Below are positions 57,240 to 60,698 of a stretch of 64,000 nt of DNA, one piece after another. The DNA lies in contig NZ_JARUND010000002.1 of assembly GCF_036898825.1 (NCBI RefSeq), positions 2,294,001 through 2,358,000 on the forward strand, given 5' to 3'. The notes below the pieces were generated by a model that was given only the letters and a program-made list of their open reading frames with translations, was not told where the DNA came from and ran no database searches. The stretch's first letter is position 1. The number at the start of each line of letters is the position of its first letter. The DNA comes from Streptomyces sp. B21-083 (GTDB lineage Bacteria > Actinomycetota > Actinomycetes > Streptomycetales > Streptomycetaceae). Made by a program: the position numbers and the translations under genes.

Positions 57240-57971
57240 CTAGCCTGCGGCGGGAACGCCGAAGTCCGCCCCCGAGATTCCGCCGAACCCCTCGGCGATG
57301 CGCACCAACGGTTCGCGCAGCGCGGTGAGTTCCGCGCGCATCTCGGACGCCTGTGGCCAGGCCGCCTCGTGGTCGAGGGGGGCCACGGCGGGCGGGCGGC
57401 CGGTCTCGTGCGCGGCGAGCCGGGGATGCCAGGTGGTCGTGAAGGGCCGGATGGTGTCGTTGATCAGGGTGTACGCCAGGCTCTGCACCGTCACGGCGCC
57501 GGCCGCCGAACCCGGCTGGAGACCGATGTTGTACGTGTGCAGCGTGCCGCGCGTGAAGTCGATCAGTGACTTGAGGGACGCCAGGGCCTCGCGCAGACTG
57601 CCCGTGCCGGGCGCCAGCTCCTGCACGCCGATACGGGTGACCAGTTCGACCTGGATGTCGAAGGCCGCCATCCGCTCCGACTCGCTGGGTACCGCCATGG
57701 GGACCTCCCTCCGGCCTCCGCGGAAGGCCAGCGTAACCGGGTCGCGCCGTCCGTACAGGGTGCGCAGGGCCGCGTGCCGCAGGGCCTCGGCGCGGGCCGG
57801 GGCGGGGTCGTGGTGGCGCCAGGCGTGCAGGACGACGGGATGCGGCTGCCAGCGGTCTTCGGAGACGGGGCTCAGCAGGCTGCGTACGCGCAGTTCGGCG
57901 ATGCCGTTCGCGGCGCGCCGGTGAGCGACCACGTGCGGGACGGCGTCGGTCGCGGCCAGCACACCGGCCAC
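57240..57971 (-). CDS. Distal part of a frameshifted TIR-NB-ARC gene: winged-helix segment plus shared helical domain
   Basis: Open frame of 243 codons from a GTG at 57971. It appears to be the continuation of the upstream TIR-NB-ARC gene after a one-base shift near 57992-58000. Residues 1-90 (VLAATDAVPHVVAHRRAANG, AELRVRSLLSPVSEDRWQPH) look like the winged-helix end of a STAND protein. Residues about 90-243 are a helical domain found again in the divergent gene at 59226: AFDIQVELVTRIGVQELAPG, FTTTWHPRLAAHETGRPPAV, MRAELTALREPLVRIAEGFG. GGAGGGAGG before the ATG at 57698 could allow the domain to be made as a separate 152-residue protein. Function unknown. Confidence 0.7.
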   Translation of the reverse strand: MAGVLAATDAVPHVVAHRRAANGIAELRVRSLLSPVSEDRWQPHPVVLHAWRHHDPAPARAEALRHAALRTLYGRRDPVTLAFRGGRREVPMAVPSESERMAAFDIQVELVTRIGVQELAPGTGSLREALASLKSLIDFTRGTLHTYNIGLQPGSAAGAVTVQSLAYTLINDTIRPFTTTWHPRLAAHETGRPPAVAPLDHEAAWPQASEMRAELTALREPLVRIAEGFGGISGADFGVPAAG

Positions 57972-57982
57972 GTCGCCGACGC

Positions 57983-59188
57983 TCAGCGGCAGGGGTGCAG
58001 GGCCGCCGCGCAGCGCAGTACGTCGGCCGCGTCCGGGGTGTCGACGTCCCGGACGAGGGACGCCGTCATGCTCGCGGCCGTGTCGTCGCCCTGGCCGTGG
58101 GCGAGGGTGTCGAGTGGGGACGTGCCCGGTCCGTGCAGCCGGTCATAGAGAGACCCGGGAGCGTGTCCCGCGCGGACCGCCCGGCCGAGCAGGTCCGACG
58201 CGCCCGGATGTCCGCCGACCGCCTGTGCGAGCACGTCGTCACCGACGAGCACGCGCGCGTGTGCCGTGTCGAGGGGTCCGAGGTCGACGGGGGTGCCCAG
58301 CCCGTCGTGCGCGCGGCTGCGCAGTGTGAACAGGGTGTGGCCGCCCGGGCGGGGCGCGGCGAGGCGGGCGAGTTCGCGGGTGGAGAGCCGCCCGCCGGGG
58401 ATCCCGTCGACGATCCACAGGAACGGTTCGCCCGCGGTCGGCCCGCGCCGCGCCTCCGCACCGGAGGCGTATCCCGCGTACGTCTCGTACCGCTCCTCGT
58501 AGTCGCCGTACGACTCACCGCTCAGCCAGTACACGCCGCCGGGGTAGGCCGCCTCGAAGCGCAGCGCGTACTCCTGTGCGAGCCGGGTCTTGCCGATGCC
58601 CGCCATGCCGCGGATCTGTACGGCGTGGGCGGCGGCGCGGCCGGTGACCAGGGGCGCGGAGTGGGCGTGCAGTGCGGAGTGCACCTGCCACAGTTCGGGG
58701 AGCCGGCCGAGGAACTCGGGGAACGGTTGGGGCGTTCCCCGAGTACGGCGCACCGCGCCGTACTCCCTGACGGGCATCGGCCCTTCGAGCCGGCCGACAT
58801 GGTCGCGTACGACGGTCACGAGGGTGTCCAGGTCGTCGGCGGAGGCATGCCGGGCGTCCCGCAGTTCGACAGGGTGGATGTGACCGGTGCCGGGCTCCGG
58901 GTTGACGACCATGACCCGTCGGCGCGGATCGCCCTCGCCGAGTCCCGCGAGATAGGCGGTCGTCAGCTCCCACTGGCAGGCCTCACGTTCCGGATAGCCG
59001 GCCGAGTAGTAGGCCAGCAGGGCCGTCGAGCGGGCGAGTTCACGCCGGATGGTGTCGCTGATGCCGGCGAAGGACGCGACTCCGGTCTCGTCCGTGAACA
59101 CGGAGAGTCCGCCGTCCCGCAGCGCCCGGGCCAGCGGACGCACCCGGTCCACATCACCGCGGCTGTAACTGAGGAAGACATCCCACAC
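57983..59188 (-). CDS. TIR-NB-ARC (STAND) protein, N-terminal part, frame ends early
   Basis: A 401-residue frame from GTG 59188. Residues 1-135 are a TIR domain: DVFLSYSRGDVDRVRPLARA, ISDTIRRELARSTALLAYYS, and CQWEL with glutamate 74 at the position of the NAD-cleaving catalytic residue. Residues about 150-380 are an NB-ARC ATPase: Walker A GMAGIGKT (194-201), Walker B PFLWIVDG, sensor HTLFTLRSRA. The frame stops at 57983 in the middle of what should be the winged helix; a missing base near 57992-58000 explains it. Bacterial TIR-STAND proteins often act in phage defence by consuming NAD, but that is inference here. The -10-like TAGGGT is eight bases from the start. Confidence 0.85.
   Translation of the reverse strand: MWDVFLSYSRGDVDRVRPLARALRDGGLSVFTDETGVASFAGISDTIRRELARSTALLAYYSAGYPEREACQWELTTAYLAGLGEGDPRRRVMVVNPEPGTGHIHPVELRDARHASADDLDTLVTVVRDHVGRLEGPMPVREYGAVRRTRGTPQPFPEFLGRLPELWQVHSALHAHSAPLVTGRAAAHAVQIRGMAGIGKTRLAQEYALRFEAAYPGGVYWLSGESYGDYEERYETYAGYASGAEARRGPTAGEPFLWIVDGIPGGRLSTRELARLAAPRPGGHTLFTLRSRAHDGLGTPVDLGPLDTAHARVLVGDDVLAQAVGGHPGASDLLGRAVRAGHAPGSLYDRLHGPGTSPLDTLAHGQGDDTAASMTASLVRDVDTPDAADVLRCAAALHPCR
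57991..58000 (-). other. Probable frameshift site in the TIR-NB-ARC gene
   Basis: Minus strand reads CTGCACCCCT. One extra G (CTG-G-CACCCC) would turn ...AALHPCR-stop into ...AALAPLPLSVGDVAGVL, joining the two frames seamlessly at a normal STAND winged-helix boundary. It could be a true mutation, a sequencing error or, less likely, programmed frameshifting. Confidence 0.7.
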
Positions 59189-59196
59189 GACGGATT

Positions 59197-59206
59197 ACCC
59201 TACTGT
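59197..59206. promoter_or_regulatory. Overlapping divergent -10 boxes between the TIR gene and its neighbour
   Basis: In ACCCTACTGT the minus strand reads TAGGGT (59202-59197), eight bases from the TIR GTG. The plus strand reads TACTGT (59201-59206), 20 bases from the ATG at 59226. The whole gap is 37 bp, so the two genes cannot be transcribed independently of each other at this point. Confidence 0.5.
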
Positions 59207-59225
59207 GAGTGCGGGGAGGGCGATC

Positions 59226-59882
59226 ATGAGACGCAGGCGACGCGGGCCGAGGGGCCCGTCGCAGATAACGGCCACGCTGGCGATTCCGTTCGTCGGCGAG
59301 ATCTCGGGCACCTGGATCCCGGCCGACGCGGAGCGCAGCGCGGCCTGGGAGCTGTACCTGGAGCTGGTCACCAGGGTGTCCGTCGAGGAACTCGACCGCG
59401 ACGAGGGCTTCCTGCGCGAGGCACTGTCCTCCCTGTACACCTTCTTCGGCACCACCCGCGAGATCCTGCGCCGGTACGGCCCGGACATCGCCCCGCCGCT
59501 CGCCCCCGGCCATGTCAGCTTCGGCGTCCTGGCCGTCACGGTCCTCAACCGTGTCCTGCGCCCCCTGCTCGCGTCCTGGCACCCCCGCCTGGCCGCGTAC
59601 GAGTCGAGCCGGCCCGCGGATGTCGACCCGGTCGCGTACGAACGGGCCTGGGAACACGCGGACGCCCTGCGCTCGGAGATCGCGGCGGTCCGTCAGACGC
59701 TGGTGTCACTGGCCCGGACCCTGCAGAAGGTGGCGGGTGTCAGCGACCTGATCGACCTTCCGGCGCCGCGCTCGCCGGGGCTGGGTCGCGGATCGGGGCA
59801 CCCCCCCCCGCAGCTCAGAGCCCTTCTGACGGTGGTTGAGGGCATGGCCGGCAACGGGCTCGGTCTTGTCCTGACCGCCTGA
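59226..59882 (+). CDS. Hypothetical protein sharing the helical domain of the TIR locus
   Basis: A 218-residue protein, ATG 59226 behind GGGGAGGG. Residues 15-165 are plainly homologous to the C-terminal domain of the divergent TIR-locus frame: AERSAAWELYLELVTRVSVE against SERMAAFDIQVELVTRIGVQ, and LASWHPRLAAYESSRPADVD against TTTWHPRLAAHETGRPPAVA; similarity extends upstream to the strand ITATLAIPF/PVTLAF. The last 45 residues are proline/glycine-rich and end VVEGMAGNGLGLVLTA. No known family recognised. The divergent arrangement and shared domain suggest that the two products interact or that one guards the other. Confidence 0.75.
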   Translation: MRRRRRGPRGPSQITATLAIPFVGEISGTWIPADAERSAAWELYLELVTRVSVEELDRDEGFLREALSSLYTFFGTTREILRRYGPDIAPPLAPGHVSFGVLAVTVLNRVLRPLLASWHPRLAAYESSRPADVDPVAYERAWEHADALRSEIAAVRQTLVSLARTLQKVAGVSDLIDLPAPRSPGLGRGSGHPPPQLRALLTVVEGMAGNGLGLVLTA

Positions 59883-59924: not shown

Positions 59925-59947
59925 TTGTCAGTGGTGGGCGCTTCAAT
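59925..59947 (+). promoter_or_regulatory. RecA-NDp/PafBC-type promoter of the gene at 59997
   Basis: TTGTCAGTGGT (59925-59935), six bases, TTCAAT (59942-59947). The 11-base box matches that of the MFS gene at 2.3 kb; the -10 lacks A at the second position. The transcript would begin near 59954, about 43 bases before the ATG, with the ribosome site in the leader. Confidence 0.7.
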
Positions 59948-59996
59948 GGGAGGTGTCGTCACAGAGCGTCACGACCGAGCTACGGGGGAGGTAGTC

Positions 59997-60698
59997 ATGG
60001 ATTGTCGTGCCGGCGATCAGGGCTACGAGGACAGTCGGGATGAGCAGAGCTCACAGAGCGGTGAAGGTTATGAGGAGGACGGGCAGCGGTACGTCTCCTT
60101 GGCGGGGCTGCGGGCTCGCGGGTGGACCGGCGGGATGGTGCACCGGCTGCTCGGCACTCCGGACCGGCTCAGCGTCAATCCACGGCTGAGGGCGGCGCCG
60201 CAGGTCCGGCTGTACCGCGTCGAGCGGGTCGACGCGGCCGAGCGGACCGACGAGTTCCGGAGGGTGGCGGCATTCTCGGCACGGCGATCGGAGGCGGTGC
60301 GCGGCGCGGTACGCCGCCGACGTCTGGAGGTTCTGGAGCGCATCAGGACCGAGCCGATCGAGGTACCGCGTCTGGATCCGGGCAAACTCGCCCTGCGGGC
60401 GGTGGAACACCGGGCACGACGGGAGGCGGCGGCCGGCTGCCGGATCGAGCTGACCGACGACAACTCGGCGCAGGACACGGGCCGCGTCCAACGCGCCTCT
60501 CTCGCCCCCTGGAAAGTCGACTACCTACGACATCGGATGAGTCACTACGACGGCCTCCTGGACGGTCTGCCGGGAGGCGAGCGGGACTCAGGCCGGGCCG
60601 AGGCCACGGAACTGCTCCGCCGACGGATCTGCGCGGCCATCGCCGAGGCGTACCCGCCACTTGAACAGGAGTGCGAGAGGCAGACGCGCGACCAATGA
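59997..60698 (+). CDS. Hypothetical protein under a damage-type promoter
   Basis: A 233-residue, charged, soluble protein with no recognised family. The N-terminus is acidic and low-complexity. Residues about 30-80 (RYVSLAGLRARGWTGGMVHR, LLGTPDRLSVNPRLRAAPQV, RLYRVERVDAAERTDEFRRV) resemble a small helix-turn-helix module followed by a beta-hairpin. A long arginine-rich helix follows (RRSEAVRGAVRRRRLEVLER) and a helical end. The ATG at 59997 is preceded by GGGGGAGG and is far better than the TTG at 59925 that opens the frame. It may be a DNA-binding protein of the damage response; inference from promoter and charge. Confidence 0.75.
   Translation: MDCRAGDQGYEDSRDEQSSQSGEGYEEDGQRYVSLAGLRARGWTGGMVHRLLGTPDRLSVNPRLRAAPQVRLYRVERVDAAERTDEFRRVAAFSARRSEAVRGAVRRRRLEVLERIRTEPIEVPRLDPGKLALRAVEHRARREAAAGCRIELTDDNSAQDTGRVQRASLAPWKVDYLRHRMSHYDGLLDGLPGGERDSGRAEATELLRRRICAAIAEAYPPLEQECERQTRDQ

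Follow-up and report, generated by a model that had tools for sequence, protein, structure and literature searches.

TIR enzymes act in immunity in bacteria, plants and animals, and for many bacterial TIR proteins we know of no partner that uses their output. In Thoeris, SLOG or macro domains belong to the effectors (according to parts of PMC11204291 and PMC9503650), and under the EAD rule copies of a domain are found on a core component and on its neighbour, adjacent copies being closest relatives (according to part of PMC7159879). In a stretch of 64,000 nucleotides from Streptomyces sp. B21-083 (contig NZ_JARUND010000002.1, positions 2,294,001 to 2,358,000; hereafter the window), whose source genome has 10.5 Mb, two divergent genes encode a TIR-NB-ARC protein and a smaller protein that share their C-terminal domain, here called domain X. 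We propose that X serves TIR enzymes as a dedicated partner and would receive their output by ligand binding or docking, a reading to which sequence comparison leads us to give a probability of about one half.

The two window proteins share their last ~150 residues at 39% identity, and in its own genome the plus-strand protein matches the minus-strand copy of X at E = 1.5e-31, far beyond chance, so that the repetition of the domain described in the initial annotation is confirmed. The separate X protein has 586 homologs, 120 of them listed; for this protein Pfam returns nothing at E up to 1, PADLOC gives no match and NCBIfam a single one far under the cut-off, and the scans of these three libraries find no further family on it. 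Domain X itself is above the cut-off in no Pfam or NCBIfam model. An AlphaFold2 model of the separate protein (pLDDT 83) shows a beta hairpin plus a four-helix bundle (helices 41-58, 70-95, 106-134, 142-147 and 152-177 in the 225-residue numbering), and a fold search with this model returned generic helical-bundle matches only, with no clear PDB relative and none that stands out. The order of the helices is common to this model and to the fused X in the model of P0121, an intact relative of the minus-strand protein. The plus-strand gene likely starts at an ATG with GGGGAGG upstream, and the short region between the divergent starts, 37 bp as first described, would have to contain the promoters of both genes.

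The minus-strand protein has the features of a TNL-like STAND protein, a TIR with Glu at the catalytic position and an NB-ARC with Walker A, in agreement with the initial annotation. Pfam TIR_2 matches residues 4-123 of its 401-residue open reading frame (ORF) at E = 1.7e-13, and Glu74, which by motif we take to be the catalytic position, is Glu in all 77 homologs aligned from the 120 listed (of 293 found with the intact protein); the Walker A Lys is kept in the same 77. The NB-ARC is recognised by fold and motif, as the AAA_16 match (E = 4.9e-4) is under its Pfam cut-off. The P0121 model (pLDDT 86, pTM 0.68) has an NB-ARC-type fold, its best match being the plant TIR-NB-ARC protein RPP1 (Foldseek E = 1.1e-11), followed by NRC resistosomes, ROQ1, the human apoptosome and CED-4. 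Near 57990 the frame shifts by one base and resumes in a second ORF, as had been noticed, and no intact single frame for TIR-NB-ARC-X is present among the reading frames examined in the window copy. The relatives encode a continuous protein of ~646 residues, in one open frame without stops in two genomes (G022, 648 residues; G001, 651 residues), and the shift is local to the window. Because TIR-NB-ARC-X is intact in these relatives, the copy in the window has probably been damaged, provided that the shift does not stem from a sequencing error; the 401-residue P0197 among the homologs of the intact protein is this same copy.

A profile of the 120 listed separate X proteins finds X in 115 of the 120 listed TIR-NB-ARC homologs (above 100 bits at the C-terminus in 114, with a weaker internal match in P0167), and we take TIR-NB-ARC-X to be a real architecture because of these matches. 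The five listed homologs without X are P0172, P0175, P0202, P0212 and the truncated P0197. At the start of the fused X in the window (57690-57720, minus strand) an ATG lies in frame, preceded at a distance of a few bases by a GGAGG-like site, and from it a free X could be made off the TIR-NB-ARC-X message; the Met is kept in S. blattellae and missing from the family consensus.

The more surprising observations on X come from outside Streptomyces. A scan of genome contigs confirmed 148 relatives, of which 80 were kept. These include, at about 50% identity, Nostoc, a Methanophagales archaeon, Bacteroidales, Zixibacteria, Armatimonadetes and Acidimicrobiales, and several of this group are metagenome bins. 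X is sparse here, being present in 16 of 292 cyanobacterial-phylum genomes, two as short fragments only (G113, G322), and in 7 of 148 archaeal-phylum genomes, three of them weak (E 6e-11 to 5e-8); fragmentary matches (G113, G322, second places in G316 and G196, and G069:C92) enter these tallies and not the neighbourhood data. X is a picked gene in 34 of 37 distant loci, of which several share a genome and not all are independent; L077, L078 and L140 have no X among the picked genes (nearest TIR domains 597, 24 and 8 bp away), and L159 was dropped as a repeat of L088. Using a TIR profile built here, we find TIR directly adjoining the separate X in 31 of the 34 loci; among the genes at a distance of two or three places 3 of 118 have a TIR, and none of the 255 further out, and the domain edges of X and TIR are often 7-20 bp apart on one strand. 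The 38 nearest TIR ORFs were checked with Pfam, which gives TIR_2 in 37 and ThsB_TIR in 12, and the catalytic Glu is conserved in 37. For the genes on the opposite flank (33 of 35, with one each in L080 and L161 left out), no TIR family is present among the 25 listed of 46 Pfam families.

The second parts of these partner TIRs vary (GUN4 in 9 of the 38, TPR in 5, NB-ARC in 4, FGE-sulfatase in 3, WD40 in 2), and our scans detected no X in the partner TIR proteins of the distant bacterial and archaeal loci. The constant association of X is with TIR, because the distant partners are without X and only 4 of 38 have NB-ARC, and the initial view of the shared domain as a property of a STAND pair does not extend to these loci. 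Public annotation points the same way: among eight annotated plasmid regions, a TIR protein is named close to X in six (Photobacterium, Vibrio, Mesorhizobium, S. cynarae, S. longwoodensis at 1.6 kb, Sinorhizobium); on the Calothrix plasmid the GUN4 protein near X has an N-terminal TIR by our profile, and in a ninth, unannotated region from Rhizobium a TIR found by profile lies just behind X-patatin. On a 49-kb contig from a virus collection, TIR (by profile) and X are 14 bp apart (L195, 5327-6432), so that the TIR and X pair may travel on mobile elements. In one cyanobacterial partner (L142, 8006-9013), residues 168-335, the GUN4 region behind the TIR, match the end of PADLOC PD-T4-6 at 4.3e-44. 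By eye, a second protein family (FAPNPF...CTLATCKP) stands beside the TIR genes of the Mesorhizobium and Zixibacteria X loci (L170, 5161-5802 and 2802-3422; L086, 9028-9633).

Closer to the window, we considered 64 streptomycete-type loci (L012-L075, including one Amycolatopsis and one record labelled Streptosporangium), and 45 of these have an intact TIR-NB-ARC-X gene plus a separate X, a count made on loci found via X and thus covering TIR-NB-ARC-X only where a separate X is present. Of 46 values for the gap between the TIR and X domain edges in the intact pairs, 33 fall at 11-21 bp, 12 at 78-165 bp and one at 552 bp. Among the 19 loci without an intact pair, L054 stops at a contig edge, the TIR-NB-ARC-X gene is broken in L040, L043, L046 and L075, a TIR ORF of 956-1224 residues without fused X lies within about 310 bp in L061, L064, L065, L066 and L068, the TIR is 2.3-3.0 kb from X in L063 and L069, and in seven (L024, L025, L034, L041, L049, L067, L070) no TIR was detected. 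X is patchy in Streptomyces, occurring in 30 of 246 drawn genomes (29 of 239 good ones); 19 matched places from this draw were fetched, with L187, L191 and L193 repeating L171, L089 and L069, and in this draw one fused protein (G706, L181) has no second X. Amycolatopsis and Glycomyces loci carry extra, very divergent separate X genes (L073, 7373-7945 and 7932-8663; L083, 7360-7899).

X is also fused to effector-like parts. The X part of a Mesorhizobium protein finds 25 proteins, 24 of which carry Patatin (PF01734), and the three X-patatin plasmid loci have a TIR near X, annotated in two and seen by profile only in one. Transmembrane forms of X are indicated by hydropathy in three archaeal loci (L164-L166) and 13 distinct Streptomyces loci, and by eye in L009; in L176, L177 and L009 the membrane form replaces the soluble X beside TIR-NB-ARC-X. 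To compare fused and separate copies we used a tree of 92 of the 211 X rows, with near-copies dropped and the rhizobial plasmid X-patatin ORFs labelled S; the window copies are absent from it and their 91%-identity relatives L012 and L013 are included. The 17 fused rows, which are TIR-NB-ARC fusions of Actinomycetota, form one supported group (99/98), with two label changes required, and the streptomycete separate copies form their own supported group (99/92) apart from it. Fused and separate X are, on this tree, different old branches, and because of this a decoy recently copied from the sensor, one of the roles first suggested for the separate protein, is unlikely, while partner and antagonist both stay viable.

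Conservation was examined in a set of 54 X domains chosen as representatives (reference rows, 5 of them separate and 7 fused, and 42 from L077-L091 and L140-L166; numbering of P0002). R53, S72, R81 and R115 are invariant in all 54, N111, P116 and E68 are kept in 53, E49 and E129 in 52, and His122 in 50. These residues, His122 counted, would share one face of each helix because they are spaced by steps of 4, 7 and 9 within the helices, an arrangement more in keeping with a ligand or catalytic site than with a surface for mere adhesion.

We favour X as a receiver because TIR and X are constant while the second parts of the TIR proteins and the cargo of X vary. The layout seen most often places an X gene beside a gene for a TIR protein whose second part varies. 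That variable part would detect a threat, and the TIR domain, given its conserved Glu and known TIR chemistry, would cleave NAD and make an ADP-ribose-type signal or change its assembly. X would then bind the product or dock on the active TIR, and would act through its cargo, which may be a membrane segment, a patatin-like lipase or, for the soluble form, an unspecified target, so that X would take the place held by SLOG or macro domains in Thoeris effectors. The TIR-NB-ARC proteins of Actinomycetota would have fused one old X lineage to their C-terminus and kept a divergently transcribed separate X. The sequences show the sharing of the domain, its adjacency to TIR across phyla, the effector fusions and the invariant residues, and from these patterns we infer the signalling, its direction and the immune role. 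As a tentative and more specific proposal, X may be a receptor domain for a TIR-made nucleotide signal in bacteria and archaea that couples varied TIR sensors to membrane or lipase effectors, a branch parallel to Thoeris in which the TNL-like protein of Streptomyces carries its own receptor. The results suggest that TIR signalling in bacteria and archaea has in X a partner that had gone unrecognised. TIR genes are accompanied by X in Nostoc, archaea and Streptomyces, and none of the family libraries searched contains it; it would give a direct handle on orphan TIR systems.

Several observations weigh against X as a receiver. The X of the window and many others have no effector part, which leaves the action of the soluble form unexplained, and a domain that only receives would not usually be fused to the TIR protein itself. 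No TIR is found at the distant loci L080, L085 and L152 or, by annotation and profile, in the Ruegeria plasmid region, and in S. longwoodensis a transposase as well as the 1.6 kb separates TIR and X. Adjacency is looser among the 18 separate X from the 246-genome draw, with TIR within 320 bp for 10, at 1.3-3.9 kb for 5 and none for 3. The frame-shifted TIR-NB-ARC-X of the window also counts here, as do about 10 of the 64 streptomycete-type loci in which X is open and the TIR-NB-ARC gene is decayed, split or gone (L024, L025, L034, L040, L041, L043, L046, L049, L070, where X is partial, and L075). The sensor is, by these sequences, lost frequently while the separate X persists, and this would suit a leftover inhibitor too.

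Such an inhibitor would act like an antitoxin and keep TIR inactive in uninfected cells, the separate protein working in trans and the C-terminal domain in cis; in our judgement it is less likely than a receiver but a serious rival. The survival of X after decay of the TIR-NB-ARC gene speaks for it, with the reservation that the loci were found via X and loss of X beside an intact TIR is uncountable, and the cis fusion fits autoinhibition. An antitoxin gene usually comes first in antitoxin systems, and of the 21 cyanobacterial loci that have a TIR, 18 show this order, X then TIR on one strand, 15 of them with domain edges within 33 bp; however, TIR is first in 7 of 8 archaeal loci, and fusions of X to patatin lipases and membrane segments are unexpected for an inhibitor of TIR alone. 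A serious rival too, though we consider it a little less likely still, is that X is an adaptor of the EAD kind, whose paired copies bring the TIR-NB-ARC sensor to a second protein. One X on the sensor and another on its neighbour, with transmembrane segments on the second copy in L009, L176 and L177, are as the EAD rule has it (in the part of PMC7159879 considered), but like-with-like pairing is not a general function because the distant partner TIRs have no detected X, fused copies lie in one supported clade and separate copies in another where the rule has closest relatives, and no EAD family is among the Pfam matches. That X is a HEPN-type RNase, joining an RNase to the TIR NADase, is very improbable: R-x6-H is present in 119 of 120 listed separate and 114 of 114 fused copies, three listed UniRef names are SAV-6107-like HEPN (P0025, P0053, P0058) and the model is a helical bundle, but Pfam lists nothing of the HEPN kind at E up to 1, the fold search singles out no match, and His122 is replaced by Gln in 4 of the 54 domains, the three archaeal membrane forms among them, with R, S and other residues retained.

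The features of the locus are collected in Table 1. Downstream of X lies a plus-strand gene (59925-60698, 257 residues) with no Pfam family above cut-off, which has 19 relatives among the picked genes of the fetched loci, many directly behind X (L010 and L017 being one locus in this tally). The S. blattellae locus has no such relative, and a gene that is RidA-like by eye follows there; the 59925-60698 gene is possibly a third member or an ordinary neighbour. Apart from the X proteins, the family scan took in two neighbours in the window, of which one is of FUSC type and the other matches no family above cut-off.

Table 1. Features of the TIR-NB-ARC and separate X genes, in window coordinates
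Feature	Position	Strand	Basis or remark
Continuation ORF in another frame: remaining NB-ARC/winged-helix region, then domain X	57240..57971	minus	frames; continuous in relatives
Fused domain X, end of continuation ORF	about 57240-57699	minus	X match, E 1.5e-31
TIR-NB-ARC ORF, 401 aa	57983..59188	minus	GTG start 59188; cut short by frame break near 57990
Start of NB-ARC/AAA region in minus ORF	about 58514-58714	minus	AAA_16; NB-ARC-type fold of relative P0121
TIR domain of minus ORF	about 58820-59179	minus	Pfam TIR_2
Region between divergent starts, 37 bp	59189..59225	none	read from sequence
Separate X protein	59226..59882	plus	218 aa from ATG 59226; listed as 225 aa from GTG 59205
Domain X within plus gene	about 59313-59735	plus	beta hairpin plus four-helix bundle

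The pairing of TIR-NB-ARC-X with a separate X is real and recurrent; the initial annotation knew of no described system of this kind, and we found no description of it in the literature searched. Similar to Thoeris, the locus is a small TIR system with a partner gene, the TIRs of the archaeal and Vibrio X loci belong to the ThsB_TIR family (one matching PADLOC ThsB models at 6e-10), and a membrane segment may be present on X, as on TM-macro ThsA (PMC11204291). The window TIR shares the conserved Glu (77/77), with ThsB_TIR matched only in other loci; it differs from Thoeris as a TIR_2 fused to NB-ARC, and Pfam shows no SIR2, SLOG or macro family on X proteins. Like the EADs (Kaur et al. 2020), X is a small, mostly helical domain on two neighbouring proteins of a TIR/STAND system, and it appears to follow the EAD rules only partly: the distant loci have no second copy on the partner, X reaches archaea, fused and separate X would be old separate lineages and not closest relatives, and the second copy in the window has no effector or signalling domain, although effector-like fusions exist elsewhere. 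No EAD family is listed for X in Pfam at E up to 1, and Pfam may not hold all EADs. In systems of TIR and SLATT, which occur in phages as well (PMC9503650), the neighbour of TIR is a membrane partner with two helices, but no SLATT family was found in Pfam scans of X or membrane-X. The TPR protein of the FxSxx-COOH system (NF040586) resembles the minus-strand protein over residues 154-350, the ATPase region, with 47.4 bits against a cut-off of 300, and differs in the X tail. The plant TNL receptors RPP1 and ROQ1 have the same order of TIR then NB-ARC, RPP1 being the best model match, and the plant relatives carry leucine-rich repeats where TIR-NB-ARC-X has X. In contrast to them, the bacterial protein has X at its C-terminus plus a separate partner gene, and the locus would offer a TNL-like receptor from bacteria whose second component can be put to the test.

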